A DNA stretch of 32,529 bases, from positions 1-32,529 of the forward strand of contig JAKABC010000002.1 of NCBI GenBank assembly GCA_021802025.1, read 5' to 3'. Positions 17,148 to 25,466 of the stretch are shown here, one piece after another (the stretch's first letter is position 1; the number at the start of each line of letters is the position of its first letter). This stretch comes from Actinomycetes bacterium (GTDB lineage: Bacteria; Actinomycetota; Acidimicrobiia; Acidimicrobiales; RAAP-2). A model generated the notes under the pieces. The model was not told where the DNA came from, searched no databases, and saw only the letters and a program-made list of their open reading frames with translations. The position numbers and the translations under genes were made by a program.

Positions 17148-18590
17148 GTGGCCCGTCGCTCGGTCGTCGTCGTCGGCGGCGGCGTCGCCGGCCTGGCCGC
17201 CGCCTACGAGCTGAGCGGGCCGGGTGCGAGCCGCGACGCCACGACCCCGCGGGTCGAGCTCATTGAGCTCGGCGAGCGCCTCGGCGGCGCGCTCGCCACG
17301 ATCGAGTTCGCCGGGCGCGTCCTCGACGTCGGGCCCGACGGCGTGCTCGCCCGACGACCCGAGGCGCTCGCGCTCGTCGACGAGCTCGAGCTCGGCGATC
17401 GGCTCGAGCCGATTGCCGCGTCGGGCGCGTGGATCTGGCTGCGCGGGGCGGCCCGGGAGATGCCGGACGGACTCACCCTCGGGGTGCCCACCGACGCGGC
17501 GGCGCTGCGCCGCTGGCCCGGGCTCAGCCGCCGGGCTCGCTGGGCCCTCGCCCGGGACCGGCGCTGGCCGGTGCGTCTGAGCGTCGGCGACGACGCCACG
17601 ATCGGGGCGATCGTGCGCGCGAAGCTCGGCGACGAGGTCGCCCGCGGCCTCGTCGAGCCCCTCATCGGGGGGATCCAGGCCGGACGCATCGACGAGCTCT
17701 CGGCGCGCTCGGTCTTCCCGGCGCTGCTCGAGGCCGCCCGGCGCGGCGGGTCGCTCGCCGCCGCCCTGGGCGCGGGCGGGCCCGCCTCGCCCGGTCCGCG
17801 ACACGGGGCCGGCTCGGGTGGGCCGGCCTTCGTCTCGCTCACCAGCGGGCTCGGCTCCCTGGTCGGGGCGCTCGAGGGGGCGCTCGCCGCGCGCGGGGTC
17901 GTCCTGCGCCGCGCCACCGCGGTGACCGCCCTGCGGCGCACGCCCTCGGGGCCGTACCCCTGGGAGGTCGACACGGCCAGCACGACCACGCCGGCCGACG
18001 CGATCGTGCTGGCCACGCCGGCCCCGGTCACGGCGGCCCTGGCCGGGCGTCACGACGCCGCGCTCGCCGCCCTGTCGAGGGTGCGCAGCGCCGGGGTCGC
18101 CGTCGTGAGCCTCAGCCTCGAACGCGCGACCACCACCCTGCCCCCCACGGGCACCGGCCTGCTCGTCCCGCTCGCCACGGCGTGGTCCGGCCCCGACACG
18201 ATGCTCGTCACCGCGCTCACCTTCCTCGACCGCAAGTGGCCCCACCTGCGTCGCGACGACGACGTGCTGGTGCGCGCCCACGTCGGACGGAGCGACGACG
18301 CGCGCTGGCGCGACCTCGACGACGACGCACTCGTCACGCGCGTTCTCGACGAGGTTCGACACCTACTCGGTCGTGTCGGCCCGGTGCGCGCCGCCCACGT
18401 CGCGCGCTGGCCCGCGGCGCTGGCCCAGTACGAGCTCGGCCACGCACCCCTGGTCGAGGCGGCCCGCACCAGGGCGCGCGACCTCGGGCTCGCCCTCGCG
18501 GGCGCCGCCTACGACGGGGTGGGCGTGCCGGCCACGATCGGCTCGGGACGGCGCGCCGCGCGCGAGGTGCGCGACCACTTCGCTAACTAG
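17148..18590 (+). CDS. hemY: Coproporphyrinogen III (protoporphyrinogen-type) oxidase
   Basis: A 480-residue FAD-dependent oxidase of the HemY/CgoX type, which oxidises coproporphyrinogen III to coproporphyrin III with oxygen. The N-terminal dinucleotide-binding fold is VVVVGGGVAGLAAAYEL, followed by ELIELGERLGGALATIEFAGRVLDVGPDG, a central LIGGIQAGRIDELSARSVFP and the C-terminal FAD contact GAAYDGVGVPATIGSGRRAA, all typical. It starts at the GTG directly after the hemH stop. It ends head to head with the HAD phosphatase gene: both stops share the palindrome CTAG (18587-18590), leaving no room for a terminator between them. The ORF-track frames overlapping it are GC-rich shadows. Confidence 0.94.
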   Translation: MARRSVVVVGGGVAGLAAAYELSGPGASRDATTPRVELIELGERLGGALATIEFAGRVLDVGPDGVLARRPEALALVDELELGDRLEPIAASGAWIWLRGAAREMPDGLTLGVPTDAAALRRWPGLSRRARWALARDRRWPVRLSVGDDATIGAIVRAKLGDEVARGLVEPLIGGIQAGRIDELSARSVFPALLEAARRGGSLAAALGAGGPASPGPRHGAGSGGPAFVSLTSGLGSLVGALEGALAARGVVLRRATAVTALRRTPSGPYPWEVDTASTTTPADAIVLATPAPVTAALAGRHDAALAALSRVRSAGVAVVSLSLERATTTLPPTGTGLLVPLATAWSGPDTMLVTALTFLDRKWPHLRRDDDVLVRAHVGRSDDARWRDLDDDALVTRVLDEVRHLLGRVGPVRAAHVARWPAALAQYELGHAPLVEAARTRARDLGLALAGAAYDGVGVPATIGSGRRAAREVRDHFAN

Positions 18591-19087
18591 AGGTAGTAGC
18601 CGGAGTGGACGTAGAGGCAGGGCACGCCTTCGTCGAGGTACATCGCGTGGTTGCGCGGGTCGTCGTCGAGGGCGAGGCGCACGTCGTAGCCGCGAGCGCG
18701 CAGGTCGTGCAGCGTCGCGCGCTTGTAGCGCTCGACGCCGGCGTAGTCCCCGTGGTCGCGCATCACCAGCAGGTCCCAGCGCAGCCCGTGGCGCTCCAGC
18801 CACTCGACGGTGGCCGTCTGGACCCGGCGGGGCCGACCCGTCACCAGCACGACGACGAGGTCGGCGACCAGCAGCTCGGCCAGGCGCGCCACCTCCTCGA
18901 CCGGCGGGTCGCCACCCACCTCGTCGAAGAAGCGGCGCCAGTCCCCGCGGTCGAGGTGGTGCTGGCGCCCGGCGGCGTCCGCGAGGACCCCGTCCACGTC
19001 GAAGATCACCGTGGCCCCCGCGGGACGGGGGCCGCTGCGCCAGAGCCAGTTCTCGGGGATGGGGGCGGCGTTCTCCACGGTCGTCAC
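18587..19087 (-). CDS. HAD-superfamily phosphatase, polynucleotide-kinase phosphatase-like
   Basis: A 166-residue single-domain haloacid dehalogenase-like protein. Motif I is FDVDGVLADA, with the nucleophile Asp and general-acid Asp; motif II is VLVTGRP; the motif III Lys is in VERYKRATL; motif IV is LALDDDPRNHAMYL. The small helical cap region (RQHHLDRGDWRRFFDEV) is typical of the phosphatase domain related to T4 polynucleotide kinase and of acid-phosphatase-like HADs. The substrate is unknown; phosphorylated nucleic-acid ends or small phosphates are possible. The start is taken as GTG at 19087, although the GTG nine bases downstream is also possible. A divergent 53-base gap separates it from the MprF-like gene, where TAGTCT (19129-19134, minus strand) might be its -10 box. 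Confidence 0.85.
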   Translation of the reverse strand: MTTVENAAPIPENWLWRSGPRPAGATVIFDVDGVLADAAGRQHHLDRGDWRRFFDEVGGDPPVEEVARLAELLVADLVVVLVTGRPRRVQTATVEWLERHGLRWDLLVMRDHGDYAGVERYKRATLHDLRARGYDVRLALDDDPRNHAMYLDEGVPCLYVHSGYYL

Positions 19088-19140
19088 GGTCCCGCCCGGT
19101 CAGTGGGCGGCCGACGGCGGTGTCTGCGAGACTAGACGCC

Positions 19141-22122
19141 GTGGCAGTCCCCGGCCGACGCACCCTCCCGGTCCCATACGGCCACCACGTCTACGTCGTC
19201 AGCGACCTGGCCCTCTCACCCGGGAGCGACCCGAGCGGCCGGGCGCTGCGCGAGCTCGCCGAGCTCTTGAACGGCCTGGACGACCCCGCGATCGTGATCG
19301 TCGCCGGCGGCCTCTTCGCGCCCCCCGAGGGGGCCCGACCCGGACCATTCGTGACCGAGACGCTCACGACCCTGTCGCCGTTGGCGAGCGCGCTGCGCGC
19401 CTTCACCGAGCGCGCGGGCCGCCAGCTGATCGTCCTGCCCGGGGCGAGCGACCGCGACCTCTTGAACGACCCGGCGGCCCAGGGCGAGCTCGCCGCTCAC
19501 GGCGTGGCCGTCGCGCGCGACGTGGTCCTCCAGGTCGCCACCGCCGACGACGTGCGCGACGTGGTGGTGGCCGCGGGCGCGACCGACCTCGACGACGCCG
19601 TCGTGGACGCCCGCGACCGCGCCGACGCCCGACGGGTCGAGGACCCCTCCGCGCTCGCGCGCTTCGCCGCGAGCCGGCTGCTCTACCGGCGTCTCGCGGC
19701 CTGGGTGTGGCTGCCCGTGGTCGCCTTCGTGCTGCTCGACCTGTGGAGCCTCTTCTCGGTGGTGGCCGACCATCTCGTCCACCACCACTACCGGATCCAC
19801 CTGCTCACCACGCGCAGCTTCTGGGCCAACCTCGCGGCCGCCCTGGTGGTGGTGGCGGCGGCCGAGACGGCGCTGGCCGCCCTCGCCGGGTGGGTGGTGC
19901 GCCGGCGCTTCGCCCGGCGCGCGAGCGCGCCCGGCGGACCGCCCGACCCCCTCGCCCTCACCCGGGTGGACGGGGTCGACGCCCTGGAGTTCGCTCGCCG
20001 GGTCGTCGAGCGCGGGGGCGCCGGCGCCGTCGTCGGTGGCGCCCCCGGCCCGGCCCTCGCCTACCTCGACCAGGGCGTGAGCGCCTCGCCCGGGCCGTCG
20101 CGCCGGGTGCTCGTCGAGCGCCGGGGTCGCTTCGGTCTGCCCCCGGTCTTCGTGGCGGTCGAACGCCTGGGGGTGGTCGAGATCGAGGCGGCGAGCACCC
20201 TGCGGGTGCGCCTGCTCGCGGGCGAGTCGAACCGGGTCTGGGGCACCCCGCTCGAGCGGATCGTCGCCGGCGCGCCCACCGGGCCCGCCCCGGCGCCGGC
20301 GACCTCGGTGGTGGGTGCGTGGCCCCGCGGCCGGCCCTACCCGGTCTCGGCCGAGCGGCTCGACGAGCAACGCCGCCATCGGGTGATCCGTCGGTGGGTC
20401 TCGTGGTCCATCCTCGCCGACGGCCTGCTCAACGTGGCCGTGACGACCGTGCGGCCCCTGCACAGCCACCTCCACCTCGTCTTGTCGGTGCTGCCGGTCG
20501 CGGTCGCCAAGTCGGCGGCGGCGCTGACCGCGGTCGCCGGGGTGGCCCTGGTGATGCTGGCCCGCGGACTCCACCGGGGTCAGCGACGGGCCTGGTTCCT
20601 CTCGGCGGCCGTCCTCGCGGTGACCCTCGTCGCGCACGCGCTGCGCGGCGGGACGATCGTGGCGATCGCCGTGGCGGCCGCCCTGCTCGCCACCTTGGTG
20701 ATCGAGCGCGACGCCTTCCGGGCCGTCTCGGACCGCACGAGCGCCGCCGAGGCCGCGCCGCGCCTCGTCCTGGCGGCCTCCGTGGCGGTCCTCGCCGCCA
20801 CCTTCGGGACCGAGGCCGTGGCCGAGGACCGACTGCCGAGCCTCGGGGTGGTGGTGCTCGCGTGCGCCGAGCGGCTCGTCGGGATCACCTCGATCGCCCT
20901 GCCCGAGGGTCCGAGCGACTTCCTCGATCCGGTGATGCTCGCCGTGGGCGTCGCGCTCGTGGTCGCCACCCTCTACTTCGTCACCCGACCGGTCGTCGAC
21001 CGGCGACTCTCGAGCGCGGCGCTCAGCGCCGAGCGGCGCCTGGCCGAGCGGCGCGCGCGCGACATCGTGGCCCGCCACGGCGCCGGCACGCTCGACTACT
21101 TCGCGCTGCGCGACGACAAGCAGTTCTTCTTCTTCCGCGACTCGCTGGTGGCCTACGCCGTCTACGGCGGGGTCGCCCTCGTCTCGCCCGACCCCATCGG
21201 CCCGGTCGCCGAGCGCGCCGGGGTGCTGGGCGCCTTCCGCGAGTTCGCCCAGTCCCACGGCTGGACCGTGGGCGTGATGGGCGCGGGGGCGACCTGGCTG
21301 CCCGTCTACCACGCCCACGGCTTCCACGCGATCTACCTCGGCGACGAGGCCGTCGTCGACTGCCCGAGCTTCTCGCTCGCGGGCCAGAAGATGAAGGGGC
21401 TGCGCCAGGCCTGCACGCGCCTCGAGCGCCACGGCTACACCGTGGAGTTCCTCGACCCGGCCCACGTCGAGCCCGGGCGGGTGGCCGCGGTGCTCGAGCT
21501 CACGGCGCGGCTGCGCCGCGGGGAGGGCGAGCGGGGCTTCTCGATGATGCTGGGTCGGCTCTTCGACCCCAAGGACCGCGGACTGCTGCTCACGGTCGTC
21601 AACGGCCCCGACGGCGTCCCGGCCGCGGCCTGCCAGTTCGTGCCGGCCCCGGGGATCAACGGCTACTCGCTCGACCTCATGCGCCGCGACCCCGGCGATC
21701 ACCCCAACGGGCTGATCGACTACGCGCTCTGCTCGACGATCTTCCACCTGGCCCGTCGGGGCGCCCAGGGGCTCAGCCTCAACTTCGCCGCCTTCCGCTC
21801 GGTCCTCGAGGACGAGTCGGGCACGGTCGTCACCCGGATGGAGCGCTGGGCGCTGCGCCGGCTCTCGGGGATCTTGCCCATCGAGTCGCTGTGGAGCTTC
21901 AACGCGAAGTACCAGCCCGACTGGCAGCCCCGCTACCTCGTCTACCCCGCGGCCGAGAGTTTCGTGCCCGTGGCGGCGGCGACGCTGCGCGCCGAGAGCC
22001 TCACCGAGCTCCCTCTGCTGGGGCGGCTCCTCGTCCACGACCCCCTCAACCGACCGGCCACGGTCACTCCCGAGGCGGTCCTCGCGGCCGCGCGCGACGC
22101 CGGACGCGGCTCGGCCGCCTGA
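19141..22122 (+). CDS. Membrane protein: degenerate metallophosphoesterase fused to an MprF-like phospholipid aminoacyltransferase
   Basis: A 993-residue protein. Its C-terminal ~320 residues (about 640-960) match the DUF2156 / phosphatidylglycerol lysyltransferase domain: GTLDYFALRDDKQFFFFRDS, AYAVYGGVALVSPDPIGP, GATWLPVYHAHGFHAIYLGDEAV and SLNFAAFRSVLEDE. That domain moves an amino acid from aminoacyl-tRNA to a membrane lipid, lowering surface negative charge. Before it lie several hydrophobic helices (about 415-615). The N-terminal ~390 residues read like a calcineurin-type phosphoesterase interrupted by two helices (186-206, 228-252), but the expected metal motifs are lost: SDLALS (21-26) where SDLHLS is usual, AGGLF (55-59) for AGD-F, PGASD (100-104) for PGNHD, and GGAP (299-302) for GHTH. 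The GTG start at 19141 lacks a Shine-Dalgarno. The longer ORF-track version runs antisense through the HAD gene and is rejected. Confidence 0.82.
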   Translation: MAVPGRRTLPVPYGHHVYVVSDLALSPGSDPSGRALRELAELLNGLDDPAIVIVAGGLFAPPEGARPGPFVTETLTTLSPLASALRAFTERAGRQLIVLPGASDRDLLNDPAAQGELAAHGVAVARDVVLQVATADDVRDVVVAAGATDLDDAVVDARDRADARRVEDPSALARFAASRLLYRRLAAWVWLPVVAFVLLDLWSLFSVVADHLVHHHYRIHLLTTRSFWANLAAALVVVAAAETALAALAGWVVRRRFARRASAPGGPPDPLALTRVDGVDALEFARRVVERGGAGAVVGGAPGPALAYLDQGVSASPGPSRRVLVERRGRFGLPPVFVAVERLGVVEIEAASTLRVRLLAGESNRVWGTPLERIVAGAPTGPAPAPATSVVGAWPRGRPYPVSAERLDEQRRHRVIRRWVSWSILADGLLNVAVTTVRPLHSHLHLVLSVLPVAVAKSAAALTAVAGVALVMLARGLHRGQRRAWFLSAAVLAVTLVAHALRGGTIVAIAVAAALLATLVIERDAFRAVSDRTSAAEAAPRLVLAASVAVLAATFGTEAVAEDRLPSLGVVVLACAERLVGITSIALPEGPSDFLDPVMLAVGVALVVATLYFVTRPVVDRRLSSAALSAERRLAERRARDIVARHGAGTLDYFALRDDKQFFFFRDSLVAYAVYGGVALVSPDPIGPVAERAGVLGAFREFAQSHGWTVGVMGAGATWLPVYHAHGFHAIYLGDEAVVDCPSFSLAGQKMKGLRQACTRLERHGYTVEFLDPAHVEPGRVAAVLELTARLRRGEGERGFSMMLGRLFDPKDRGLLLTVVNGPDGVPAAACQFVPAPGINGYSLDLMRRDPGDHPNGLIDYALCSTIFHLARRGAQGLSLNFAAFRSVLEDESGTVVTRMERWALRRLSGILPIESLWSFNAKYQPDWQPRYLVYPAAESFVPVAAATLRAESLTELPLLGRLLVHDPLNRPATVTPEAVLAAARDAGRGSAA

Positions 22123-22181: not shown

Positions 22182-24041
22182 ATGGCTAGAAACGTCACGC
22201 GCGTCGTCGTCGTCGTCGCGATGGCCTTGATCGCGGTTCTCGGGGCTAGCGCCGCGGCGGCTTCCTCCACAACTCCGCCCCCCTCGTCCCTCGGCTACGA
22301 CGTGAGCTTTCCCCAGTGCAACACCCCCCTACCCCCCACGCCAGGATTCGGCGTCGTGGGCGTCAACAACGGATATCCCTTCTCGATCAACCCCTGCCTC
22401 AACACGGAGCTGCAGTGGGCTATGTCCAGTGCCGGCGGTAAACCGCAGTTCTACGCCAATACCGCTAACCCCGGGCCGTCGAGCAATGCGGACTGGCCCA
22501 AAGGGCAACAGACGCCCGACGTATGTGACGGCACCGACTCGACGGGCTGCTCGTACGACTACGGCTGGAACGCGGCTCAGGGGTCGTTCGAGAATGCCGT
22601 CAACGCCGAGACCGCGGTGGGCGCGGCCTCCCCGCAGAGTTCCGCGACCAGCGCAACGTGGTGGCTCGACGTGGAGACGGGCAACTCGTGGGAGAGCCTC
22701 GGGACGACCTCCCCCACGGCCACCCAGCTGGGCAACGACCAGGCCGACCTCCAAGGCGAACTCGCCTATTTCGCCAGCGTTGGTGTGGCCAACGTGGGCG
22801 TGTACTCGACGGGCTACCAGTTCGGCCAAATCGTAGGCACCCCGGGGACCGTCTTCCCGGCGATCCCGGTTTGGCTGCCGGGCTACGCCACCCAAGCCGC
22901 CGCCCAGGCGGCCTGCGCTAACACCTCCTTCACGGGTGGGCGCGTCACGATGATCCAGTACGCGCTGAACGGGCTGGACGGTGACTATCTCTGCGGCCTC
23001 GTCAGCGTCCCGGCCACCGTCAGCGTCCCCGTGACCCAGGCCGGCTCCTTCTCCCAGCAGCTCACCGTGACGGGCGAAGGTTCGCCCGTGACCTACGTCC
23101 AGAACAGCGGTGCGCCGTATCTCGTCGTCTCAAGCACCGGCCTCGTCTCCGCGAACGGGGCGCTGGCCGCGGGCGTCTACGTCGCGAGCGGATACTCGAG
23201 CACCCCAACGGGTCTCACGGGGGAGTTCTCCCTCACAGTGACCGTGGGACAGATGACCCAGACCTCACCCGCGACGGTGCTCGTTCCAATCTCCCAGTCC
23301 TCGACGTTCGTCACCCAGGTGAGCGCCACCGGCGGCGTCGGGCCACTGACCTACACCCAGACGACGGGTCCGCCCAACCTCATCGTCTCATCGTCGGGCC
23401 AGGTCCGCACGAGCGGCACCCTCGCGAATGGCTCGTACGTCGTGCGCGGCGCGGTAAGCGACGCCACCGGCGACCACGGTGTCTACTTCTTCAACCTCCT
23501 CGTCGAGCCGGGACTCATCACCCAGTCGTCGCCCACGACAATCGACGTCGCTCCCACGGCCCTGAGCAACTTCACCGCGCAGATCACGGTGAGCGGCGCT
23601 ATCGGCACGTTGGACTTCGCCCAGACATCGGGCTCACCGGACGTAACGGTCTCGTCCACCGGCCTCGTCACCGTCAGCCCCTCCCTCGCCCTCGGAACAT
23701 ACGAGGCGGCGGGAACGGTGAACGACCCCAGCGGAGATCACGGCACGTTTGGGGTGAGTATCCAAGTCGCGACACCCCCCATCGTCTTACCCATCGCCAC
23801 GCGCGTCGTCGGCCACGCCGTGGCCGGTCGGGCAGTGACGCTGCAGATCAGGGGTCGCGGGTTTTTCGGTCGACCCCGAATCGTGGCGCACGCGGGGACG
23901 ACGGTAGTCGTCACGAAGGACTCTGGGACCTCACTCACTGTGCGCGTCACGGTCGCGGTGCGCTCGAGGCCCGGCGTCTATCGCCTCGTCATCACCTTGC
24001 CCAACGGCAAGAGCACGAGCGTGCGCTACGTGCTGCGCTAG
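22182..24041 (+). CDS. Secreted GH25-like protein with three extracellular repeats
   Basis: A 619-residue exported protein. The signal peptide is VTRVVVVVAMALIAVLGASAAAA. Residues ~35-270 resemble the TIM-barrel-like GH25 / Rv2525c-type domain of actinobacteria: GYDVSFPQCNT, FGVVGVNNGYPFSINPCL, WWLDVETGNSWES with the DxE acid pair (near 162-164), and VGVYSTGYQFGQI. Several Cys residues (NPCLNTE, DVCDGTDSTGCSY, AACANTSF, YLCGL) could form disulfides outside the cell. Three Ig/cadherin-like repeats of ~85 residues follow (about 274-357, 360-443, 448-531), each with SPATV...VSSTGLV...G-Y cores. A final IPT/TIG-like beta domain (about 537-619; VTLQIRGRGFFGRPRIVAHAG) ends the protein. Codon third positions are visibly less GC-rich than in all neighbours (AAT, GGA, TAT, GCT appear). 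A peptidoglycan or cell-wall role is likely; activity is unproven. Confidence 0.82.
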   Translation: MARNVTRVVVVVAMALIAVLGASAAAASSTTPPPSSLGYDVSFPQCNTPLPPTPGFGVVGVNNGYPFSINPCLNTELQWAMSSAGGKPQFYANTANPGPSSNADWPKGQQTPDVCDGTDSTGCSYDYGWNAAQGSFENAVNAETAVGAASPQSSATSATWWLDVETGNSWESLGTTSPTATQLGNDQADLQGELAYFASVGVANVGVYSTGYQFGQIVGTPGTVFPAIPVWLPGYATQAAAQAACANTSFTGGRVTMIQYALNGLDGDYLCGLVSVPATVSVPVTQAGSFSQQLTVTGEGSPVTYVQNSGAPYLVVSSTGLVSANGALAAGVYVASGYSSTPTGLTGEFSLTVTVGQMTQTSPATVLVPISQSSTFVTQVSATGGVGPLTYTQTTGPPNLIVSSSGQVRTSGTLANGSYVVRGAVSDATGDHGVYFFNLLVEPGLITQSSPTTIDVAPTALSNFTAQITVSGAIGTLDFAQTSGSPDVTVSSTGLVTVSPSLALGTYEAAGTVNDPSGDHGTFGVSIQVATPPIVLPIATRVVGHAVAGRAVTLQIRGRGFFGRPRIVAHAGTTVVVTKDSGTSLTVRVTVAVRSRPGVYRLVITLPNGKSTSVRYVLR

Positions 24042-24197
24042 CCGTACCTAGGACGCGTGCCGAGGCGACGCTCGACGAACGACCCTTCGGGGGATCCCCG
24101 AGGCCCGCACGCCGCCCGGTCCCAGAATCCGCGACGACCGGAATCGCCAAGCCGGGCGTAACCACATCGTCACGCGATGGGGCCCTAGGGTCGTCCG
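24042..24197. other. Intergenic region with two short inverted repeats
   Basis: 156 bases without a gene. It holds TCGGGG-GAT-CCCCGA (24087-24101), whose core is the ten-base palindrome GGGGATCCCC. This may be a weak terminator of the secreted-protein gene, although no T-run follows. A second inverted repeat, CATCG-TCACG-CGATG (24165-24179), sits just upstream of the MFS -10 box and could be an operator. No open frame or RNA gene is recognisable. Confidence 0.5.
24186..24191 (+). promoter_or_regulatory. -10 promoter element of the MFS gene (probable leaderless start)
   Basis: CCTAGGGT is followed by six bases (CGTCCG) and the GTG start. It matches the MoxR-gene promoter base for base over eight positions and in spacing. 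No Shine-Dalgarno is present, consistent with a leaderless transcript. Confidence 0.6.
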
Positions 24198-25466
24198 GTG
24201 CAACGAAGGCTCGCCGTCGCCCGGCTCATCCAGCACCGCGAGCCCACGCTCTTGCTCGCGGGCCAGGCCGTCTCCAACCTCGGCGACGGCGTGGCCCTGG
24301 TGGCCCTCACGCTGCTGGTGCTCGACACGACCCACAGCGCGTCGATGCTCGCGTGGTTCGCGGCCGCGCGCATGGCCCCGACCGTCGCCTTCTTGCTCGT
24401 GGGCGGGGCCGTCGTCGACCGGTTCGGTCGCCGCACCCTCTTGCTGATCTCGGACGGGTCGCGCTGCGTGCTGACCGCGGCGCTGACCACGATGATCGCC
24501 CTGCACGCCCTGCACTACGTCGAGCTCATCGTCTTCGCCCTCGTCTTTGGGGTCTTCGACGCCCTGTTCATGCCGGCCTACGCGGCCCTCACCCCCCAGA
24601 TCGTGCCCACCGAGCTGCTGCCGGCGATGAACTCGATCCGCCCCCTCTCGTCGAACCTCATGGGCACGATGATCGGCCCGGCGCTCGGCGGCCTGCTCTC
24701 GGCCTACTCCACCGCCTGGGCCATCGCGATCGACGCCGCGACCTTCGCGGTGAGCGCGGGCTTCTTGTTCGCGATGCGGCCGGTGCCCGCCCCGGAGCGC
24801 ACCGAGACCACCTCGATGCTCCACGACGTGCGCGAGGGCCTCGCCTACGTGCGGCGCACGACGTGGTTCTGGACCTGCCTGTCGGCGGTCGCGCTGGTCA
24901 ACGCCCTCGTCCTCGTGCCCCAGGGCGTGCTCGTCCCCTACTTCTTGCGCCACGTCCTGCACGCGCCCAAGGTCGAGGTCGGGCTCATCTTCACCGTCGG
25001 CGGGGTGGCCGGCGTCCTGATGAGCCTGGTCGCGGGGAACCTCGCGATGCCGCGTCGACGGATCCGCACGATGTTCAGCGTCTGGGGCATCGGGACCACC
25101 GCGGGTCTCGTCATGGGCTTCGCCACCAACTTCTGGGAGGTGGCGCTCTTCCCGGTCCTCGTCTCGGCCGCGATCGTGCTGGGCAACGTCTTTTGGGAGT
25201 CGATGGTCCAAGAGGAGGTCCCGGCCGAGATGATGGGGCGGGCGAGCTCGGTCGACTGGTTCGTCTCGCTCGGGCTCTCGCCGATCGGCCTGGTCGTGGC
25301 CGGCGCCCTCGCCGGGGCCATCGGGGTGCGCACGTACTACGTCGTGATGACCCTCGTCTGCCTGGTGCCCACCGGGCTCATCCTCCTCTCGCGCCGGGTG
25401 AACGCCGTCGACGCCGGCCGGGTCCGCGCCCGGGTCGTCGACCCGGCCGCGGGCGCCGCGCCCTAG
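24198..25466 (+). CDS. Major facilitator superfamily exporter
   Basis: A 422-residue membrane transporter with about twelve hydrophobic helices. The loop between helices 2 and 3, GGAVVDRFGRRTLLLISDG, is the MFS signature. The N-terminus LLLAGQAVSNLGDGVALVALTLLVLD and VFDALFMPAYAALTPQIVP are typical of the DHA3 drug-efflux / EntS-like group, which export antibiotics or siderophores by proton antiport. The substrate is unknown. The GTG start is supported by a TAGGGT box six bases upstream. A short inverted repeat upstream might bind a regulator, but no regulator gene is adjacent. Its stop shares a CTAG palindrome with the stop of the convergent ATP-grasp gene. Confidence 0.88.
   Translation: MQRRLAVARLIQHREPTLLLAGQAVSNLGDGVALVALTLLVLDTTHSASMLAWFAAARMAPTVAFLLVGGAVVDRFGRRTLLLISDGSRCVLTAALTTMIALHALHYVELIVFALVFGVFDALFMPAYAALTPQIVPTELLPAMNSIRPLSSNLMGTMIGPALGGLLSAYSTAWAIAIDAATFAVSAGFLFAMRPVPAPERTETTSMLHDVREGLAYVRRTTWFWTCLSAVALVNALVLVPQGVLVPYFLRHVLHAPKVEVGLIFTVGGVAGVLMSLVAGNLAMPRRRIRTMFSVWGIGTTAGLVMGFATNFWEVALFPVLVSAAIVLGNVFWESMVQEEVPAEMMGRASSVDWFVSLGLSPIGLVVAGALAGAIGVRTYYVVMTLVCLVPTGLILLSRRVNAVDAGRVRARVVDPAAGAAP

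Follow-up and report, generated by a model that had tools for sequence, protein, structure and literature searches.

A phosphoesterase-fold module with a lost metal site fused to an MprF-like aminoacyl-lipid synthase in Acidimicrobiia

MprF is a bifunctional lysyl-PG flippase/synthetase for which cryo-EM structures are available (7duw, 9j8q), and MprF-type proteins set the charge of the bacterial surface and how well the cell tolerates cationic peptides. LysX is the mycobacterial lysyl-PG synthase, in which the synthase is fused to LysRS. LpxH, in turn, is the UDP-2,3-diacylglucosamine hydrolase. The gene described here brings parts related to these enzymes together in a single protein, an MprF-like synthase preceded by a phosphoesterase-fold module that has lost nearly all of its metal ligands. 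It lies in a stretch of 32,529 nucleotides (the window; positions 1 to 32,529 of contig JAKABC010000002.1, assembly GCA_021802025.1) from a 1.7 Mb genome of the Acidimicrobiales, which is about 81% complete.

The fused gene and the two halves of its product

The original prediction described an open reading frame with altered phosphoesterase motifs, two inserted membrane helices and a DUF2156 domain, and all of these were found where it had placed them (Table 1). An assembly or gene-calling artefact is ruled out, as the same fusion is present in many independent genomes. The named relatives of the N-terminal half come chiefly from metagenome-assembled genomes of Acidimicrobiaceae.

Table 1. 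Features of the fused gene and of the adjacent phosphatase gene, in window coordinates
Feature	Position	Strand	Basis or remark
HAD phosphatase (PNKP-like, intact DxDG)	18587..19087	-	Head-to-head with the fused gene; Pfam PF25109
Fused gene, whole ORF	19120..22122	+	GTG start at 19120 or 19138; ORF and translation; ~995-1001 aa
Calcineurin/LpxH-like phosphoesterase module, degenerate metal site	19156..20427	+	AlphaFold; PDB best match LpxH; homology to intact PF00149 proteins
Ex-motif I, SDLALS	19201..19218	+	D kept, H to A; aligned to DxH of intact homologues
Ex-motif II, AGGLF	19303..19317	+	GD to GG; alignment to intact homologues
Ex-motif III, PGASD	19438..19452	+	GNHD to GASD; alignment to intact homologues
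Ex-motif IV, VVAAG	19564..19578	+	EHG to AAG; alignment to intact homologues
Two-helix transmembrane hairpin between motifs III/IV and V	19645..19923	+	Model helices 164-208 and 222-256; hydropathy peaks, Arg-rich flanks
Ex-motif V, GGAP	20035..20046	+	GHTH to GGAP; alignment to intact homologues
Multi-helix membrane region, equivalent of MprF subdomain 2	20350..21015	+	NCBIfam MprF alignment; full-length model helices; MprF cryo-EM matches
LPG_synthase_C (DUF2156, tandem GNAT) aminoacyl-lipid synthase domain	21061..21945	+	Pfam PF09924, E 8.7e-66; PDB relatives 4v34, 7duw, 9goe

The continuation of the protein into a multi-helix region and a DUF2156 synthase had been read as MprF-like, and Pfam, NCBIfam and the structural models all agree. 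LPG_synthase_C is the sole Pfam match of the fused protein (residues 648-942; 222 bits against a cut-off of 27.5), all nine family-conserved motif positions of the synthase are kept (9/9), and this half is apparently intact. With NCBIfam, the C-terminal part aligns with positions 10-577 of the LysX profile (of 1102) and with positions 313-836 of the MprF profile (of 841). The flippase part of MprF, approximately the first 312 positions, is absent, and about 430 other residues, which form the phosphoesterase half, are in its place. Moreover, the full-length model is a confident one (pLDDT 87, pTM 0.82), and it matches cryo-EM structures of MprF along some 550 columns. The same genome encodes a second, shorter DUF2156 protein (G000:C63:17574-18422). 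Downstream of the fused gene lie two long open reading frames with no Pfam match (22182-24041, + strand; 24048-25211, - strand); the region of the latter has an open frame on the other strand too, where relatives match better (24198-25466, +).

By sequence, the N-terminal half alone has no match in the PDB, Pfam or NCBIfam, and it stays below the PF00149 gathering cut-off, which the intact fused and stand-alone relatives mostly exceed. Its AlphaFold model, for which an alignment of 36 homologues was the input, is of high confidence (pLDDT 91, pTM 0.86) and has the phosphoesterase fold that had been proposed: the top Foldseek match in the PDB is the complex of LpxH with lipid X (5k8k; E 3.7e-6, probability 1.00), later matches are inactive polymerase B-subunits, Mre11, Rv0805 and GpdQ, and those of high probability are nearly all of the phosphoesterase fold. 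As the domain is interrupted by the membrane hairpin, the global TM-scores are modest (0.32/0.53). In addition, a family profile of the N-terminal half picks up stand-alone proteins in which all motifs are intact, with E-values as low as 7e-77, and four family members match PF04042 weakly. A chance likeness of the motifs is ruled out by the predicted fold together with the homology to intact proteins.

A single one of the eight metal or catalytic ligands, the Asp of motif I, is present in this half. The original claim that the metal-site motifs are altered holds for SDLALS, AGGLF, PGASD and GGAP alike, with the correction that motif I retains its Asp, so that seven of the eight ligands are lost; a fifth altered motif, VVAAG in the place of EHG, had been missed. 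The N-terminal half is of the PF00149 type by fold and homology and lacks all but one of the metal ligands that characterize the enzymes, and it is a pseudoenzyme in the sense of metal-site loss on a phosphoesterase fold. The two membrane helices foreseen ahead of motif V are recovered in the model as well. The same hairpin is present in intact stand-alone relatives and is thus ancestral; helix insertion as part of the decay is thereby ruled out. Hydropathy and the Arg-rich flanks put both hairpin ends on the cytosolic side, and with this topology the phosphoesterase part and the synthase would probably share one, cytosolic, face.

Distribution of the fusion and loss of the metal ligands

The sample comprised 88 non-redundant fused proteins, 21 stand-alone phosphoesterases and eight synthases lacking the N-terminal half. 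A profile search for the fusion, combined with a check of the ligands, found it to be widespread, as the same full-length fusion, in Acidimicrobiia and two other classes, with some members intact and most degenerate. The fused proteins are bimodal by the number of ligands kept (seven with eight, one with seven, three with four or five, and 77 with none to three), and every one of the 21 stand-alone homologues has all eight; intact members of both kinds rule out that all homologues are degenerate. Both halves are intact in the fused proteins L090, L091, L158 and L134, in which Pfam detects both domains, L091 being just below the PF00149 cut-off. In the tree of the synthase part, which excludes the phosphoesterase columns, the intact fused proteins are nested among the dead ones. 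If ligand losses are irreversible, 13 are required on the tree as drawn and at least four when only branches with support of at least 95 are used. One genome (G853) carries two fused paralogues, L134 and L100; one has a dead phosphoesterase beside a HAD gene, and the divergent other, located elsewhere, has all ligands intact.

The stand-alone relatives found by the family profile search are 450-500 aa long and occur in other classes and, in one case, in the same order. Their motifs are intact (SDxH, GD, GNHD, EHG and GHTH), the PF00149 cut-off was passed by all five of the proteins checked, and the LpxH-family hits of the intact relatives are weak. Those from other classes of the phylum (L055-L068, L070-L084) make up an uncharacterised stand-alone metallophosphoesterase family with the two-helix membrane insertion. 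Judging by the likeness to LpxH and by the hairpin, the ancestral intact phosphoesterase may have cut a lipid phosphoester. In the tree of the N-terminal half, which excludes the ligand columns, stand-alone proteins of families f77 and f79 fall outside the fused group, and one intact stand-alone protein from a single-contig genome (L054 / L069; genome G002) falls inside it, adjoining a fused intact protein, and looks like a secondary fission in which the synthase was dropped. No DUF2156 gene was found beside the stand-alone phosphoesterases, and an unfused gene pair is therefore unsupported.

Essentially every protein whose phosphoesterase is dead, the window protein included, retains the synthase motifs. 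The exception to one-sided loss in this direction is family f99 (L045 and L047, from another class), in which the phosphoesterase has 8/8 ligands and the synthase 4/9 and 6/9 motif positions. The f99 synthase is changed at 16 of 52 positions that are invariant across the other aligned fused proteins; as controls at the same 52 positions, six single sequences had zero or one change and one from yet another class had six. Fused proteins with both halves broken were not found in the sample. As f99 is a single clade of two genomes, the reciprocity comes down to one reverse event and the L054 fission.

Possible roles of the degenerate half

Purifying selection acts on the dead half. Compared with two close relatives, dN/dS is 0.18 in the globular phosphoesterase part, 0.17 in the synthase and 0.03-0.05 in the membrane hairpin, and pseudogene-like decay of the N-terminal half is ruled out by a value level with that of the synthase. 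Within the window's clade (n = 25), the loops of the former active site have a conservation of 0.70 versus 0.59 for the rest of the globular module (permutation p < 0.0002), a conservation that is partly of Gly and Pro and may be purely structural. Moreover, the former motif V has turned into a clade-typical GGAxRPAL.

Overall, we favour the reading that the protein is an aminoacyl-PG synthase equipped with a non-catalytic pseudo-phosphoesterase as a docking or regulatory module, and consider it probable, if by no means certain. The N-terminal module would descend from a membrane-anchored LpxH-like enzyme, and its two-helix hairpin may seat it on the cytosolic membrane surface, where it could dock on the synthase and its helices at the position of the MprF flippase subdomain. 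Once docked, it might hold the synthase at the membrane and present or gate the lipid substrate. In MprF, the membrane domain is reported to keep the synthase at the membrane via specific contacts, and residues 1-320 of the S. aureus protein constitute flippase subdomain 1 (PMC8131360). Alternatively, the module may respond, without hydrolysis, to a phosphorylated ligand in the pocket of the former active site. Loss of catalysis would have been tolerated or favoured in many lineages, since an architectural or regulatory role needs no metal. As originally proposed, the dead half may also sense or bind a lipid or nucleotide that is phosphorylated, or control aminoacylation, a conjecture backed by the purifying selection, the conserved loop positions and the placement where MprF has its flippase subdomain.

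A broader version can be offered tentatively: these proteins may be two-headed lipid enzymes, a membrane phosphoesterase joined to an aminoacyl-lipid synthase, in which evolution repeatedly silenced one of the heads while preserving its shape for the sake of its partner. The silenced head would be the phosphoesterase in many lineages and the synthase in a single one, and never both. If true, the dead head is a ligand-gated regulator of lipid aminoacylation that replaces the MprF flippase.

It is somewhat more doubtful that the N-terminal half is just inert, an anchor in the membrane or a scaffold for folding: a relic with no pocket function, retained only because its removal would destabilise the synthase. 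Gly, Pro and Arg residues near the module boundary are numerous among the most conserved positions, and between close relatives dN/dS is lowest in the transmembrane hairpin, both in line with such a role. However, the same order and class also contain motif-intact synthases without any phosphoesterase half (f61 and others), and this half is thus dispensable in principle; the above-average conservation of the former active-site loops in dead clades also speaks against an inert anchor.

Another explanation, which we regard as improbable, starts from an ancestral two-step lipid enzyme, in which the phosphoesterase trimmed a headgroup and the synthase aminoacylated the product, and supposes that in the window's lineage the first step has moved to another protein, perhaps the HAD phosphatase, with the dead half left as a scaffold. 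In its favour, fused proteins with both halves intact exist, and the top fold match, LpxH, is itself a lipid phosphoesterase. The HAD gene is a direct neighbour of the fusion in at least eight families of the order (f1, f9, f16, f22, f28, f31, f32 and f45). Counted by hand, the two genes are no more than about 3 kb apart in 32 genomes whose phosphoesterase is dead; seven genomes contain both genes and have a phosphoesterase that is wholly or partly intact, and the genes are that close in none of these. Genomes with such a phosphoesterase sit in one clade, however, so that the contrast is phylogenetically confounded. Furthermore, the HAD gene is also found in genomes without the fusion, and its product is PNKP-like and no known lipid phosphatase. 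The pairing of the two genes is an association and serves as a lead only; the mechanism favoured here does not rest on this neighbour, because the contrast between intact and dead follows one clade. In the window's genus, heme genes (ferrochelatase and an amine-oxidase-family protein) precede the fused gene, and the HAD gene is head-to-head with it.

Finally, it is very improbable that the N-terminal half still hydrolyses something in a metal-independent or differently liganded manner: the motif-I Asp and the Asp of the former GNHD are retained in most of the window's clade and the peptide epimerase MslH is among the weak Foldseek matches, but seven of the eight ligands are lost and the residues now at III-N and III-H differ freely among members of the genus, unlike those of a new active site.

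Comparison with described systems

Both parent families are known. A literature search that had most subscription journals outside its reach found no published description of the fusion, of the repeated decay of one of its halves or of the phosphoesterases with two inserted helices, and within that literature the suspicion of an undescribed arrangement was borne out. A whole bacterial group would have swapped the flippase for a phosphoesterase-fold module and then repeatedly lost its chemistry with the structure kept. Proteins with both halves active and with one active provide a natural comparison series for asking what the partner module does for the synthase, be it positioning, feeding or regulation. 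In addition, the window protein represents a bacterial membrane example of a pseudo-phosphoesterase, and draws attention to a family of uncharacterised membrane phosphoesterases that carry the two-helix insertion and probably act on a lipid.

Polytopic YkuE-type metallophosphoesterases are likewise membrane-associated, but carry four transmembrane helices ahead of an exported, Tat-dependent catalytic domain (PMC5449189), whereas the helices of the window protein interrupt a domain predicted to be cytosolic. The B-subunits of DNA polymerases resemble the N-terminal half in being an inactive, metal-free calcineurin-like fold kept as a scaffold, to which the weak PF04042 matches also relate, although their partner enzyme and process are unrelated. 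LpxH is the closest fold match of this half, with weak family hits among the intact relatives, and differs in having its metal ligands, no inserted hairpin and no fused synthase. LysX, the top NCBIfam match of the C-terminal part, shares the short transmembrane region and the synthase, but the window protein ends soon after the synthase, without the C-terminal LysRS, and has the extra N-terminal module. MprF shares transmembrane subdomain 2 and the tandem-GNAT synthase with its motifs kept, while the window protein has, instead of flippase subdomain 1, a phosphoesterase-fold module with a two-helix hairpin.
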